Assembly (NCBI RefSeq): GCF_001005315.1
Contig: NZ_LBMG01000005.1
Span: 62,001 to 126,000, forward strand
DNA: 64,000 bases
Direction: 5' to 3'
Source: Kordia jejudonensis
GTDB lineage: Bacteria > Bacteroidota > Bacteroidia > Flavobacteriales > Flavobacteriaceae
The position numbers and the translations under genes were made by a program. Shown here piece by piece: positions 45,566-51,743 of the stretch. Numbering within the stretch: position 1 is the first letter of the stretch; every line of letters starts with the position of its first letter. Below the pieces are notes generated by a model. It saw only the letters and a list, made by a program, of their open reading frames with translations, had not been told where the DNA came from and ran no database searches.

Positions 45566-48186
45566 TGGAAGAAAATAACGAATTACATGCTGAAAATCAG
45601 CAACAAGAAAACAATTCGCAAGATACCATAACCAAAGTTACAGGCATGTACAAGGATTGGTTTTTGGATTATGCCTCGTATGTAATTTTAGAAAGAGCAG
45701 TTCCGGCTATTGAAGATGGTTTTAAACCAGTGCAACGCCGTATCATGCACTCAATGAAGGATTTAGATGATGGGCGTTACAATAAAGTAGCCAATATTGT
45801 TGGACATACGATGCAATATCATCCACACGGAGATGCCAGTATTGCCGATGCCATGGTTCAAATTGGTCAAAAAGATTTACTCATTGACACACAAGGAAAC
45901 TGGGGAAACATTCTCACGGGCGACAGAGCTGCAGCTTCACGTTATATTGAAGCACGTTTGTCTAAATTTGCGTTAGATGTCGTTTTCAGTCCAAAAATTA
46001 CAGATTGGCAACTGTCATACGATGGTCGTAAAAACGAACCTGTCAATCTTCCTGTAAAATTTCCAATGTTGTTAGCGCAAGGTGCGGAAGGAATTGCGGT
46101 TGGTTTATCGACTAAAATATTACCACACAATTTTCTCGAACTTATTGATGCTTCCATCAAACATTTGCAAGGAAAACGATTTACCATCTTGCCAGATTTC
46201 CCAACTTCGGGAATTATGGATGCCAGCAATTACAATGATGGTTTACGCGGTGGAAAAGTACGCGTTCGTGCAAAAATTTCACAACAGGATAAAAATACCT
46301 TGGTCATTACTGAAATTCCTTTCGGAACGAATACAACTTCATTAATTGAATCGATTCTGAAAGCAAATGACAAAGGGAAAATCAAGATTAAAAAGATTGA
46401 AGATAACACGGCGGCAGATGTTGAAATTTTAGTGCATTTGCCAAACAATATTTCGCCAGATAAAACCATTGACGCGTTGTATGCATTTACGAATTGTGAA
46501 AGCTCAATTTCGCCATTAGGTTGTATTATTTATGATAACAAACCTTTATTCATAGGTGTTTCTGAAATGTTGCGTCGTTCTACAGATCATACCGTAGAAT
46601 TGTTAAAAGCGGAATTGGAAATTCAATTGGCAGAACTGCAAGAACAATGGCATTTTGCGTCGTTAGAGCGAATTTTCATTGAAAACAGAATCTATCGTGA
46701 AATAGAAGAAGAAGAAACTTGGGAAGGTGTTATCAATGCGATTGATGAAGGTTTAAAACCACATATAACACATTTAAAACGCGCGGTAACCGTTGAAGAT
46801 ATTACACGTTTGACGGAAATTCGAATCAAGCGTATTTCAAAATTTGACATTGACAAAGCACAACAAAAAATTGATGCGTTAGAAGAAACTATCGCAGAAG
46901 TAAGACATCATTTGGAAAACCTTATCACGTTTGCTATTGATTATTTTACACGTTTAAAAAAGCAATACGGAGAAGGAAAAGAGCGTAAAACTGAAATCAG
47001 AATTTTTGATGATGTTGATGCGAGAAAAGTAGTGATTCGAAACACAAAACTCTATGTAAATAGGGAAGAAGGTTTTGTTGGAACATCATTGAAAAAAGAC
47101 GAATATGTTGCCGATTGCGCGGATATTGATGACATTATCGTGTTTACACGCGACGGAAAAATGCAAGTGACACGTGTTGATGCAAAAACCTTTATTGGCA
47201 AAAACATCATTCATGTTGCCATTTTTAAGAAAAAAGACAAACGCACCATTTACAACATGATTTATCGTGATGGAAAAGGTGGCGCAAGTTACATAAAACG
47301 TTTTGCAATTACAGGAGTTACACGTGACAAAGCGTACGATTTAACACAAGGAAAAAGTGGTTCTATGGTAACGTATTTTTCAGCAAATCCAAATGGAGAA
47401 GCCGAAATCGTTACGATATTATTACGTCAAGCAGGAAGTATCAAAAAGTTGAAGTGGGATATTGATTTTGCAGATTTATCGATCAAAGGAAGAGGCGTAA
47501 AAGGAAACATTGTTACAAAATATGCTATCAAACGTATCGAACTCAAAGAAAAAGGAGTTTCTACACTAAAACCACGTAAAATATGGTTTGACGATACTGT
47601 ACAACGTTTGAATGTTGATGGAAGAGGCGAATTGATCGGCGAATTTAGAGGAGAAGATCGTTTGCTCATCATCAATCAAAAAGGAGAGATCAAAACCATT
47701 CTTCCAGAATTGACGGCTCATTTTGATAGTGACATGATTGTGTTGGAAAAATGGAATCCAAAAAAACCAATTTCAGCCATCTATTTTGATGGAGAAAAAG
47801 AACGTTACTATGTAAAACGTTTCTTGGTTGAAAATACGTCTAAAGTAGAATTATTCATTACGGATCATCCAAAATCGCAACTAGAAATTGTGATGACAGA
47901 TTGGCGACCAATGGCAGAAGTGGTTTTCTACAAACAACGTGGAAAAGACCAAAAGCCAAATTTAGAAGTCAATTTGGAAGAATTTATTTCTTTAAAAGGA
48001 ATCAAAGCACTTGGAAATCAACTCACAACAGATAAAGTGCGACAGATAAATACGTTGGAATCTTTACCTTATGAAGAGGAAGAAGAAGTGCCAGCAGAAG
48101 AAATTGAAGTTGTAGACGAAGAAACCGTAAAAGGCAGTGAAAGCGGCGAAAAACCAGCTGATGACGGACAAATAGGATTGTTCTAA
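45565..48186 (+). CDS. parC: DNA topoisomerase IV subunit A (ParC)
   Basis: This is the DNA-cleaving subunit. The 873 residues hold the winged-helix/tower region with VPAIEDGFKPVQRRIMHSM and the catalytic tyrosine Y127 in AAASRYIEARLSKFA. A beta-pinwheel C-terminal domain begins near residue 520 (repeats such as DIDDIIVFTRDGKMQVTRVD and DRLLIINQKGEIKTI). The chain ends in a strongly acidic tail (EEEEEVPAEEIEVVDEETV). The DNA-wrapping GyrA box (QRRGGKG) is not seen, which supports ParC. It is coupled to the small membrane-protein gene by a 1-base overlap. Confidence 0.94.
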   Translation: MEENNELHAENQQQENNSQDTITKVTGMYKDWFLDYASYVILERAVPAIEDGFKPVQRRIMHSMKDLDDGRYNKVANIVGHTMQYHPHGDASIADAMVQIGQKDLLIDTQGNWGNILTGDRAAASRYIEARLSKFALDVVFSPKITDWQLSYDGRKNEPVNLPVKFPMLLAQGAEGIAVGLSTKILPHNFLELIDASIKHLQGKRFTILPDFPTSGIMDASNYNDGLRGGKVRVRAKISQQDKNTLVITEIPFGTNTTSLIESILKANDKGKIKIKKIEDNTAADVEILVHLPNNISPDKTIDALYAFTNCESSISPLGCIIYDNKPLFIGVSEMLRRSTDHTVELLKAELEIQLAELQEQWHFASLERIFIENRIYREIEEEETWEGVINAIDEGLKPHITHLKRAVTVEDITRLTEIRIKRISKFDIDKAQQKIDALEETIAEVRHHLENLITFAIDYFTRLKKQYGEGKERKTEIRIFDDVDARKVVIRNTKLYVNREEGFVGTSLKKDEYVADCADIDDIIVFTRDGKMQVTRVDAKTFIGKNIIHVAIFKKKDKRTIYNMIYRDGKGGASYIKRFAITGVTRDKAYDLTQGKSGSMVTYFSANPNGEAEIVTILLRQAGSIKKLKWDIDFADLSIKGRGVKGNIVTKYAIKRIELKEKGVSTLKPRKIWFDDTVQRLNVDGRGELIGEFRGEDRLLIINQKGEIKTILPELTAHFDSDMIVLEKWNPKKPISAIYFDGEKERYYVKRFLVENTSKVELFITDHPKSQLEIVMTDWRPMAEVVFYKQRGKDQKPNLEVNLEEFISLKGIKALGNQLTTDKVRQINTLESLPYEEEEEVPAEEIEVVDEETVKGSESGEKPADDGQIGLF

Positions 48187-48527
48187 TTGGGTCGCTTCAC
48201 TTCGGCAGGCTCAGTGCAGACGCTTTTGGGTCACTTTACTTGGTTATTTAAACTACTCGAAATGTCACTTTGAGAGGATTTGTAACGCAAATTTGTTTCA
48301 AAAAAGGCTTTGAAATTACAATGTCATTCTAACCTATTTTTAGCGTTATTTTGAGCTTTCTTCATGCTCACATGCATTCATACTTCATTTTTATAAATTT
48401 AAACAACTAATCCGTCAATGCTTATAGGGATTGACAATTTTAATGATTTTTAGCTTTAAATTCATAACTCTTAAAGGCGTTATCCGAAAAGCTTCAATAG
48501 AGTAGGAATCATCAAAAAACAAATAGT
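48187..48527. other. Intergenic region with dispersed repeat fragment
   Basis: This 341-base gap lies between parC and the small peptide gene. Near its left end, CTTCACTTCGGCAGGCTCAG (48195-48214) resembles a sequence type that, from general knowledge, is scattered through intergenic DNA of flavobacteria. CTCGAAATGTCACTTTGAG follows near 48257. The right half carries the promoter listed separately. No gene is supported in it. Confidence 0.5.
48431..48458 (+). promoter_or_regulatory. Promoter of the double-glycine peptide gene
   Basis: TTGACA at 48431 and TAGCTTTA at 48451-48458 (one mismatch to TAnnTTTG), with 17 bases between TTG and the minus 7 box. The predicted leader is about 60 bases. 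Confidence 0.5.
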
Positions 48528-48689
48528 ATGTTAAAAAAAATCGTAAACGTAGAAAATGCACAAACATTAACGAAAGAAGCACAAGCGAAAATTAATGGAG
48601 GAATACAAATTTATTGCAACAGAGATTCTGATTGTCCGCCAAATTGGGCATGTAGTGGCGCAGGTTTTTGTTGCCCAAATCATTATTAA
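48528..48689 (+). CDS. Double-glycine leader, cysteine-rich bacteriocin-like peptide
   Basis: The 53-residue precursor consists of a charged leader, MLKKIVNVENAQTLTKEAQA then KINGG (GG at 24-25), and a 28-residue core. The core begins IQIYC and has five cysteines at 30, 36, 42, 48 and 49, an exactly regular C-x5-C-x5-C-x5-CC pattern. The leader style (basic start, TLTKEAQ, K-I-N-G-G) is that of peptides cleaved and exported by C39-peptidase ABC transporters or matured by modifying enzymes. The core has CPPNWAC and GFCCPN, like disulfide-stabilised miniproteins. Only one serine and no threonine are in the core, so a lanthipeptide is less likely. It is a single-gene unit with promoter and terminator; no transporter or modifying enzyme is adjacent. 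Function (antimicrobial, signal or other) is inferred. Confidence 0.75.
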   Translation: MLKKIVNVENAQTLTKEAQAKINGGIQIYCNRDSDCPPNWACSGAGFCCPNHY

Positions 48690-48713
48690 AAATTTAAGTT
48701 TTAGGGAAACAAT

Positions 48714-48748
48714 AAAGACGTCAATTCATAAGTTGAGTTGGCGTTTTT
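48714..48748 (+). terminator. Terminator of the peptide gene
   Basis: Fourteen-pair stem with three G-U wobbles (arms 48714-48727 and 48735-48748), seven-base loop and T run. It overlaps the last codon of the convergent gene, so it can act both ways. Confidence 0.65.
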
Positions 48749-49526
48749 ACGGAATTAGCCAATGTCCGTGAAAAGCTGTTTCAAATATTGCAAATGCTGA
48801 CAACCATTTTTCTTCGTCTACCGTTGGTTCTATATTTTTTGAAAGTGTAATAATTGGCGTTCCAAATTCTAATTCATCAAATAGTATATCTACTGAATGT
48901 CCGTAGTCGATATCATCATAATTTGGTACAACATTTATGGTTGCTAATTCTCTATCATTTATTACCAAAGGAAAGAGACCTTCGCCTAAACGATGTTTTA
49001 CTTTTTTGAAAATTTCAATCTCAAAAGAAGCTTTTATAGGATGTTTTGCTTTTCCAATACGTTGATTATTATGATCATAAATAATGCCTTCTTTGTCAAA
49101 TCGTCCTAAAAGCTTCCCATCACAATAAAATGTAGCTTCTAATCCTGTGAATTCATAGTAAAACTCACGTTTTTTACTCATGGCATACATATGACCTTTG
49201 GTGTCAAAACCGCGTTCTATGCGCTCAAATGCAACAATTGGTTTGCGTTTTTCATTCAAAATAACTCCAGAAAGCTTCGCATACGTAACCGATTTTACAT
49301 AATTAAACGACATTGCATCAGTGATTTCAGCATATAATGGAGACGTATGCGTGCTGAGTGTTTTTCTTTTTTTGATGACATTATTGAAGAGTTTCTTTTT
49401 TTCTTTCGCTATATAGGCTTCAGATTTCGGTTCTGTAGATTTTTTAATGATGAAAGCGATCAATACCACAAATCCGCCGACCACTATAATTCCGAAAATA
49501 ATAAAAATGATAAAAAATGTCCCCAT
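48747..49526 (-). CDS. Membrane-anchored protein, unknown
   Basis: The 259-residue protein has one very hydrophobic N-terminal helix (residues ~3-29, ending at IAFIIKKSTEPKS) and a soluble domain of about 220 residues. The domain is beta-rich and includes YYEFTGLEATFYCDGKLLGR and YDHNNQRIGKAKHPIKASFE, reminiscent of tubby-like or LURP-type barrels, though I cannot assign a family. It would be anchored in the inner membrane. It stands alone, convergent with the small peptide gene across a shared terminator. Confidence 0.6.
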   Translation of the reverse strand: MGTFFIIFIIFGIIVVGGFVVLIAFIIKKSTEPKSEAYIAKEKKKLFNNVIKKRKTLSTHTSPLYAEITDAMSFNYVKSVTYAKLSGVILNEKRKPIVAFERIERGFDTKGHMYAMSKKREFYYEFTGLEATFYCDGKLLGRFDKEGIIYDHNNQRIGKAKHPIKASFEIEIFKKVKHRLGEGLFPLVINDRELATINVVPNYDDIDYGHSVDILFDELEFGTPIITLSKNIEPTVDEEKWLSAFAIFETAFHGHWLIP

Positions 49527-50594: not shown

Positions 50595-51035
50595 TTATAA
50601 AAATCGAGCTCTTTCTTCAGGAGTTGGCATTCGACAGGTATTTTTTTCGCCAAACCATTTGTAACGGTATTTTGCAATGATGTTATAAACGCCATCACGA
50701 AGAAATTTTGGCAGTATTACGAAAATTTGCATCAAACTCCAAACGCCACCAAATTCTTTCATAATTTTTAAAGCTGCAGTCGATTTGTGATAATAAGCAA
50801 CGCCAGGTTCGTATAAAATGACGGAATCTAATTTTGAAGCATCAAGTTGTAAGTGTTCTTGTATTGCGATGCCGATTTCTGATTGTAACGATGCAAAACG
50901 AAAAACATCCTTTTTGTCTTTTGAAATAATTTTATCCACAAAACCGTTGCAAAGATTGCAAACGCCATCAAATAGTACAATTTTTTTATCTTTTGGTAAG
51001 GAATCAATCATTTTAACTTCTTTTTCAGTAATCAT
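50595..51035 (-). CDS. DCC-family thiol-disulfide oxidoreductase-like protein (DUF393)
   Basis: The 146-residue protein carries the family hallmark KIVLFDGVCNLCNGFVDKII (D-G-x-C-x2-C). RFASLQSEIG, DSVILYEPGVAYYHKSTAAL and the basic C-terminal KYRYKWFGEK complete the DCC pattern. The two cysteines form a thioredoxin-like redox centre. The partner is unknown. About 190 bases, including a G-rich heptamer array, separate it from the M23 gene upstream. Confidence 0.85.
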   Translation of the reverse strand: MITEKEVKMIDSLPKDKKIVLFDGVCNLCNGFVDKIISKDKKDVFRFASLQSEIGIAIQEHLQLDASKLDSVILYEPGVAYYHKSTAALKIMKEFGGVWSLMQIFVILPKFLRDGVYNIIAKYRYKWFGEKNTCRMPTPEERARFL

Positions 51036-51227: not shown

Positions 51228-51743
51228 CTAATATCCTGACGCTTTTAATTGTTCAATAGGATTCAAGTAAAACATCTTTTTCCAACCTTGTCTGTCGCTA
51301 TCAATTTTCCAAGGATACGGAATAATGGTTGCAATTGCATAATGTACGTGTGGCGATTTACCTTTTGCATTTCCAGAATTACCAACTGTACCAATTTTTT
51401 CATCTCTGCTTACATACGATAGGGAAGAAGTTGTAATGGTATCCAAATGTGCATAATAGTGTAATTTCCATTTTGGACCTAAAACAACTACTACGTTTCC
51501 GCCAATTTCGATCGTTCCAGTATATAACACAATTCCTGCTGTAGAAGTATTGAGTTGTGTTCCTTTCTTAGCAAAAATATCGACACCTTTATGGGTTACT
51601 GATTTTCCCCAAGGATAATACCAAAATGATTGTTGATTGTAATCTTTTGAAGTTCCTCCTTGAACTGGCATGCTGAAATTCTCAGGAATTAGATATCCTA
51701 TTGTGATAATTATTAGAATTGTATACCCAATTTTTCTTTTCAT
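51228..51743 (-). CDS. M23-family (LytM-type) peptidase
   Basis: The 171-residue protein has an N-terminal signal anchor (MKRKIGYTILIIITIGYLIP) and a peptidoglycan-endopeptidase domain with all zinc ligands: H-x3-D in THKGVDIFAKKG and H-x-H in SPHVHYAIATI. GNVVVVLGPKWKLHYYAHLD completes the fold. It is small for the family, with no LysM or coiled-coil region, so it is probably a minimal inner-membrane-anchored cell-wall hydrolase. The gap to mutS2 (51744-51848) holds degenerate AACAAC-type repeats. Confidence 0.85.
   Translation of the reverse strand: MKRKIGYTILIIITIGYLIPENFSMPVQGGTSKDYNQQSFWYYPWGKSVTHKGVDIFAKKGTQLNTSTAGIVLYTGTIEIGGNVVVVLGPKWKLHYYAHLDTITTSSLSYVSRDEKIGTVGNSGNAKGKSPHVHYAIATIIPYPWKIDSDRQGWKKMFYLNPIEQLKASGY

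Follow-up and report, generated by a model that had tools for sequence, protein, structure and literature searches.

A double-glycine miniprotein gene of Kordia jejudonensis preceded by a DUF805b RNA and predicted to encode a two-disulfide knottin-type core

In this study, a 64,000-nucleotide (nt) stretch of the Kordia jejudonensis genome (contig NZ_LBMG01000005.1, positions 62,001 to 126,000; hereafter the window) was analysed with a focus on one small gene, located at 48528-48689. The gene is real. Judging from its sequence, the product is well supported as a stand-alone, non-lanthipeptide secreted miniprotein with a double-glycine (GG) leader, and modelling predicts well that its core adopts a fold of the cystine-stabilised beta-sheet (CSB) type. 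The gene is preceded by a DUF805b RNA, which was the sole match when the entire window was searched with Rfam (41.1 bits; gathering score 35.6) and whose 3' end lies 19 nt upstream of the start codon. We consider it probable that the peptide is a C39-exported, two-disulfide knottin-type miniprotein belonging to an RNA-marked regulon. The features on which this reading is built are collected in Table 1.

Table 1. Coordinates of the miniprotein gene and the associated elements within the window.
Feature	Position	Strand	Evidence
Promoter-like block TTGACA ... TAGCTTT	48431..48457	+	conserved in the alignment of 9 orthologues; inferred
DUF805b RNA (RF02914, clan CL00115), well-supported H-type pseudoknot of the 5' untranslated region (UTR)	48474..48508	+	cmscan, 41.1 bits
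DUF805b stem 1	48475-48478 with 48491-48494	+	cmscan structure line
DUF805b stem 2	48483-48485 with 48505-48507	+	covariation over 100 + 47 sites
Precursor gene, 53 aa (stop codon in span)	48528..48689	+	translation of the open reading frame, orthologues, pN/pS
Double-glycine leader, residues 1-25	48528..48602	+	common to paralogues; alignment
Core, residues 26-53 (C30, C36, C42, C48, C49)	48603..48686	+	predicted CSB knottin plus an extra cysteine
Terminator hairpin, 16 bp, T-rich 3' arm	48713..48749	+	folding; matching place in orthologues

The open reading frame (ORF) 48528-48689 translates into MLKKIVNVENAQTLTKEAQAKINGGIQIYCNRDSDCPPNWACSGAGFCCPNHY, in which a leader ending in KINGG is followed by the core IQIYCNRDSDCPPNWACSGAGFCCPNHY. 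The gaps between the core cysteines are 5, 5, 5 and 0 residues (C-x5-C-x5-C-x5-CC), so that the translation and the gap count bear out the GG leader and the exactly spaced core described in the first-pass annotation of this DNA; the same spacing arose in only 14 of 200,000 shuffles of the core. Substrates of C39 exporters carry GG at positions -2/-1 and hydrophobic residues at -4 and -12, and the leader satisfies this rule (I22 at -4 and L14 at -12). In an alignment of 21 sequences, K16, Q19, G24 and G25 were invariant, position 22 was nearly so and position 14 was either L or I. The leader also recurs in the same genome (17 further matches at E ≤ 10, several of them weak), and the genus possesses four-cysteine paralogues with the spacing 5-5-5, 5-4-5 or 5-5-4. 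A lanthipeptide, already argued against in the first-pass annotation, was rejected, since the core is poor in Ser and Thr (two and none, respectively) and no Lan enzyme was detected among the 10 neighbouring ORFs scanned.

Homologues with conserved cysteine spacing, on which the first-pass annotation had made its proposal depend, were found in the genus sample of 11 genomes (the window's own among them). Full-length orthologues were present in 9 of these genomes (own counted), the other eight showing 70-85% identity, and 8 of the 9 retained the exact spacing; the exception (G005, L077) ends in C-x4-CC. The five cysteines, W40, G24-G25, P50 and H52 were invariant in the alignment of the 9 orthologues, and so was the tail C49-P-x-H52 (9/9). 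A scan of public genomes returned four Kordia orthologues (74-85% identity). The pooled ratio of nonsynonymous to synonymous differences (pN/pS) was 0.294 for the 36 pairs (leader 0.306, core 0.283), a value that is only rough because synonymous differences are large (pS 0.587); by this measure the orthologues are under purifying selection. The notion that the frame is a chance or decaying ORF could appeal to the two remaining genomes, one of which (G003) has only paralogues, while the other (G007) has only a partial match. This copy (L078) lacks the leader and the RNA element, carries a tyrosine in place of the third cysteine and appears to be a relic. Against this notion stand the nine orthologues with their low pN/pS, the stops that interrupt the two other reading frames in every orthologue, and the conserved 5' RNA and terminator, and we regard it as scarcely credible.

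The spacing of the first four core cysteines equals that of Cys II-III-V-VI in squash inhibitors, the 5-5-5 CSB motif, and the RDSDCP and GxGxC motifs are common to both. When a profile of the 9 orthologues was compared with the Protein Data Bank (PDB), engineered cystine knots and squash inhibitors ranked at the top (2n8b, E 2.2e-4; the MCoTI-II form 2po8, E 4.9e-4). An AlphaFold2 model built from 21 sequences gave a mean predicted local distance difference test score (pLDDT) of 86 for residues 31-50, with low confidence in the leader, and Foldseek matched the predicted core to MCoTI-II and EETI-II with probability 1.00 and a root mean square deviation of 0.7-1.0 Å across 23 columns, the four best hits showing 48-52% identity. 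A designed counterpart of such a core exists: Min-23, a two-disulfide CSB unit cut from EETI-II, is reported to be a stable autonomous fold (PMC6259850, PMC2659701), and the core of the window peptide is predicted to be built likewise. A literature search gave no bacterial knottins of this group among the matches listed. The window peptide differs from squash inhibitors in having neither Cys I nor Cys IV and no inhibitory loop, and in the presence of C49 and of a bacterial GG leader. That squash inhibitors are the closest solved structures might suggest a protease inhibitor acting in the same way. The squash inhibitory loop sits between Cys I and Cys II; here Cys I is missing and IQIY is the sole stretch separating GG from C30. 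The absence of this loop argues against trypsin inhibition, and a role of this kind is very improbable.

The nearest annotated relative is CCPGW_fam (NCBIfam NF047792, 'putative bacteriocin'). When 296 genomes sampled from the order were searched, 29 contained a match at E 0.001. The cut-off was exceeded in 12, all of which belong to one genus (g240, which we take to be Chryseobacterium-like) of another family of the order (f5). The 12 CCPGW sequences contain six cysteines in the knottin order C-C-CC-C-C, and both members scanned with the Toxin_12 knottin model passed its gathering score of 21 (26.7 and 21.5). Alignment of the orthologue profile to these 12 members with hhalign gave a probability of 96.2 and E 2.3e-9 over 41 columns; at the profile level, the two families are distantly related. 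They are also alike in their short precursors with GG or GA leaders, in the core pattern QI.C.R.SDC.P.W.C...G.C and in having DUF805b in the 5' UTR: the RNA was found above the gathering score directly upstream of 11 of the 12 CCPGW genes, the twelfth having a visible variant, and in all 30 sampled genomes of the CCPGW genus at E 1e-5 (2 to 17 copies). In the structural search with a model of one CCPGW member (mean pLDDT 69), a sea-anemone peptide came first and EETI-II third (E 0.38 and 0.5). The window peptide has CPPNW where CCPGW_fam has CCPGW; it is devoid of Cys I and Cys IV and bears an extra cysteine at its end. Standard knottin pairing includes a I-IV bond, and this is the bond that the window peptide lacks, together with both of its partner cysteines. 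The first-pass suggestion of an undescribed family holds only in part: the spacing of the peptide is that of the knottin CSB motif, CCPGW_fam is a distant relative and the leader recurs in the genome.

Several results weigh against an exported, knottin-type peptide. The scores of the window peptide stayed below the thresholds of both relevant families, i.e. Squash (PF00299; 20.6 against a gathering score of 22) and CCPGW_fam (18.5 against a cut-off of 80), and the G008 orthologue, when scanned alone, gave no Squash match. The predicted template modelling score (pTM) of the AlphaFold2 model was 0.39, and the Foldseek matches had an E-value of 0.08, with none at or below 0.001, and are not significant alone. 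The CCPGW profile retrieved nothing from the PDB sequences at E ≤ 0.1. Position -7 of the leader is occupied by a non-hydrophobic residue (Q). No clear orthologue outside the genus was found in 299 genomes of the family, where a profile search at E 0.001 matched 15 genomes, two of them within the genus; the 13 remaining matches were weaker and mostly led by the leader, and in this sample the exact peptide therefore seems restricted to the genus. Finally, the last CCPGW cysteine is aligned to C49 by hhalign but corresponds to C48 by squash spacing, and therefore the partner of C36 may be either C48 or C49.

The DUF805b RNA accompanies the full-length orthologues in the genus sample, being located upstream of all 8 other full-length genus orthologues (35.7-49.3 bits) and, above the gathering score, of the four public ones, the species of which probably overlap with the genus set. 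The genome of K. jejudonensis holds 39 DUF805b matches at E ≤ 1, with 22 above the cut-off, and at E 1e-6 the genus genomes contain 11 to 39 each, as opposed to 0 of 14 control genomes; at E 1 matches do occur in the controls, none above the cut-off. In a family sample searched with stricter filters (199 genomes, 2 of them of the genus), DUF805b was detected in 104 at E 1e-6, mostly in 1 to 5 copies per genome; higher numbers were recorded in G166 (8), G187 (9) and G204 (24), the last representing a second expansion, outside the genus.

The cmscan structure line for DUF805b comprises stem 1 only. In addition, the loop triplet ahead of GAAAA is complementary to the triplet behind GUA (stem 2), and the resulting H-type pseudoknot is well supported by sequence covariation. 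The main set consisted of 100 sites (38 from the own genome, 55 from the genus and family scans and 7 from orthologues), in which GAAAA was chosen by stem 1 pairing only. All three pairs of stem 2 were formed in 92 sites (84 with Watson-Crick pairs only), and shuffling of the partners gave a mean of 40.5 and a maximum of 58 (20,000 shuffles). The first pair was T-A in 46 sites, G-C in 31, A-T in 8 and C-G in 4, and was broken in 8, while the second and third were broken in none. The 62 sites from elsewhere were picked by a pattern in which part of the 3' triplet is prescribed (AGTA, A/G, G), a choice that favours two of the three pairs; stem 2 was formed in 55 of them and in 37 of the 38 own sites, which were taken from Infernal coordinates alone. 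In an independent set (the CCPGW loci and their genus, Infernal coordinates) it was formed in 47 of 47 sites, against a shuffled mean of 31.4 and maximum of 40. These shuffle tests overstate the certainty because related sites are not independent events; the compensatory changes (TCT/AGA, GTC/GAC, CCT/AGG) are nevertheless hard to explain otherwise. Covariance models of this type are unable to hold pseudoknots, and therefore the curators may already know stem 2; a literature search returned nothing on DUF805b, whose original description may already hold the pseudoknot or the targets. When only nested pairs are allowed, the 5' UTR folds weakly (z -1.41; 17 of 200 shuffled sequences do as well), which is expected if stem 2 is a pseudoknot and by itself lends it no support.

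An upstream DNA operator common to the DUF805b genes was considered and rejected: no tested box occupied a fixed place at the 100 sites, and therefore the common element is RNA and not a promoter. For the survey of own-genome targets, 38 of the 39 sites were taken (the weakest was dropped) and two at contig ends were excluded, leaving 36, at 33 of which the start codon lies 15-26 nt 3' of DUF805b. This spacing, together with the lack of a fixed upstream box, favours a post-transcriptional role. An automatic rule assigned GG-leader peptides to 13 of the 36 sites and Sec- or lipoprotein-like signals to 11. A check by eye found 11 of the 13 GG calls sound (L042 and L052 were judged false) and revealed two near-GG leaders that the rule had missed (L044 and L050). 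The same rule selected 1 of the 59 window ORFs, namely the gene studied here, and 9 of 136 ORFs in the window plus five own-genome stretches, which were partly chosen for peptide or exporter genes. In the CCPGW genus, 17 of 28 DUF805b loci (high-scoring sites, one per genome, and not a random draw) encode GG, GA, GS or AG leaders as judged by eye. Other targets include lipoproteins and uncharacterised small proteins, some without any secretion signal, as well as proteins that we take to be zinc-metalloprotease-like and secreted, tail-collar-like or caspase-like (L024 C24:107579, L211, L225, L201); the regulon is therefore wider than GG peptides. From the sequences of these targets, DUF805b is linked to secreted small proteins generally, not to GG peptides alone.

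The gene appears to form its own transcription unit, as previously proposed. The promoter-like block is retained in the orthologue alignment (n = 9) as TATCGGGaTTGACA ... TTCTTACTTT and was assigned to the Bacteroidota type on the basis of what we take to be the consensus; a pattern scan of 48180-48800 for E. coli-type (sigma-70) signals called no promoter and no terminator. The terminator hairpin has 16 pairs and a folding energy of -18.9 kcal/mol (z -7.4; equalled by 0 of 200 shuffles), and a hairpin-forming stretch is aligned at the matching place in the orthologues. An inverted repeat like TACGG-n5-CCGTA was often observed about 65-75 nt before the ATG of genus GG-leader paralogues lacking DUF805b (L002, L003, L005, L081, L084, L090, L093 and others); it is perhaps a DNA operator.

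The adjoining genes encode topoisomerase IV subunit A and a 259-aa protein without a Pfam match. Ten neighbouring ORFs were scanned with Pfam. The upstream side yielded gyrase B and topoisomerase IV A types, and the opposite strand downstream carries the no-match ORF, DUF2807, a DCC1-like thiol-disulfide oxidoreductase (50595-51035, minus strand, 1.9 kb from the gene), an M23 peptidase (51228-51743, minus strand, 2.5 kb away) and MutS domain V; no ABC exporter, C39 domain or lantibiotic enzyme was found among the 10. The earlier statements that no transporter, protease or modifying enzyme is adjacent, and that the gene is isolated, are thus correct for the adjoining genes; the former needs qualifying for the oxidoreductase and the peptidase a short distance away, and the latter does not extend to regulation, as the DUF805b RNA is common to dozens of genes. 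In the four public orthologue loci the gene is found beside the same gyrase/topoisomerase-type genes, and in two of them (L019, L021) there is an ORF resembling the DCC1-like oxidoreductase.

These data bear on a metal- or redox-active thiol peptide, in which the two-disulfide scaffold would present C49 and H52 as the working site. The invariance of C49, P50 and H52 in all nine orthologues, the absence of the fifth cysteine from six four-cysteine paralogue cores and the oxidoreductase gene, with its similar ORFs in two of the four public loci, all agree with such a function. CxxH alone, however, is a weak motif, and the oxidoreductase lies on the opposite strand with two other genes in between; we judge this function improbable.

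It had been predicted that export would require a C39-type transporter encoded elsewhere, and a PF03412 search of the genome is in line with this: one strong C39 exporter (735 aa, with ABC domains) was identified on another contig (C143), directly followed by a 452-aa HlyD protein, and the window peptide may be its substrate. A GG leader and an exporter acting in trans, as proposed here, are known from C39-exported peptides such as microcins and EbfG1-4, from which the window peptide differs in having no neighbouring exporter and in its knottin-type core. Locus L066:7257-15959, where this only strong C39-ABC exporter and its HlyD partner lie, also contains three short leader-type peptide ORFs (GG in two of them) as well as a lantibiotic-dehydratase-like pair that is split (Lant_dehydr_N and _C), which suggests a modified-peptide cluster. 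Two further PF03412 matches were weak, one being just above the cut-off (L067:5300-6919 and L068:5672-7234, both on the minus strand). They correspond to VKOR-type membrane proteins (46.0 bits in one, 26.4 against 27.5 in the other) with a C39-like start that lacks the usual catalytic stretch, one of them having a Pfam thioredoxin match. Both adjoin leader-peptide genes (near-GG in L067, GG in L068) and are candidate leader-guided disulfide oxidases.

In the mechanism we propose, transcription probably starts just upstream of the 35-nt DUF805b pseudoknot, which would most likely set the translation or stability of the message jointly with those of other secreted small proteins. The precursor would be cut after G25 and exported in trans by the C39-ABC/HlyD exporter of the genome. 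In the periplasm or outside the cell, the 28-residue core is predicted to oxidise to the CSB fold, presumably with the bridges C30-C42 and C36-C48 or C36-C49, and one conserved cysteine, next to the invariant C-P-x-H tail, may remain free to dimerise, bind a metal or react with a target. The likeliest role is that of a bacteriocin-like or other extracellular binding peptide. Alternatively, it could be a signalling or biofilm-type GG peptide, not antimicrobial and released through a common transporter, for which EbfG1-4 and PteB of Synechococcus offer a precedent (PMC4997328). Such a role would suit the conservation and slow evolution of the gene in the genus, its constant neighbours in the four public loci and the lack of a recognisable immunity gene among the 10 scanned neighbours. 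The nearest catalogued relative is called a 'putative bacteriocin' (by name alone), and rigid knottin cores occur more often in binders and toxins than among signals; on these grounds we hold signalling to be rather unlikely, and a binding or bacteriocin-like peptide is preferred.

A second apparent H-type pseudoknot, GACAYAAA-S2a-RTGTC-nnTAAAnG-S2b, was observed in other genera, where it precedes GG peptides (L229-L255, near position 1501 of each; also L153, L155, L158, L162, L164, L167 and L175). Of 199 genomes, 10 contained the pattern, with 27 matches in all, compared with none for the reversed-pattern control. Its stem 2 has at least 5 bp (G-U allowed) in 26 of the 27, in 14 different pairings, a count made with no shuffle control, and GG or GA leaders follow 22 of the 25 matches that have an ORF within 80 nt. 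No Rfam match at this motif was obtained in 18 loci at E 0.05 or in 16 loci at E 0.5, and a pattern search found it to be absent from the genome of K. jejudonensis.

It is conceivable, as a tentative generalisation, that Flavobacteriales use H-type pseudoknots of the 5' UTR (DUF805b and the second motif, which has no Rfam match in the scanned loci) as a shared post-transcriptional switch for a large set of secreted GG miniproteins, including a natural two-disulfide knottin that would have arisen by joint loss of Cys I and IV and gain of a free thiol. What looked like an odd small ORF can now be tested as a minimal knottin of bacterial origin whose fold is precisely predicted. DUF805b, already catalogued as an RNA, gains a probable pseudoknot structure and a target set, which raises the question of which protein or ligand reads it. 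The element may also help to locate secreted peptides that standard gene calling may miss.
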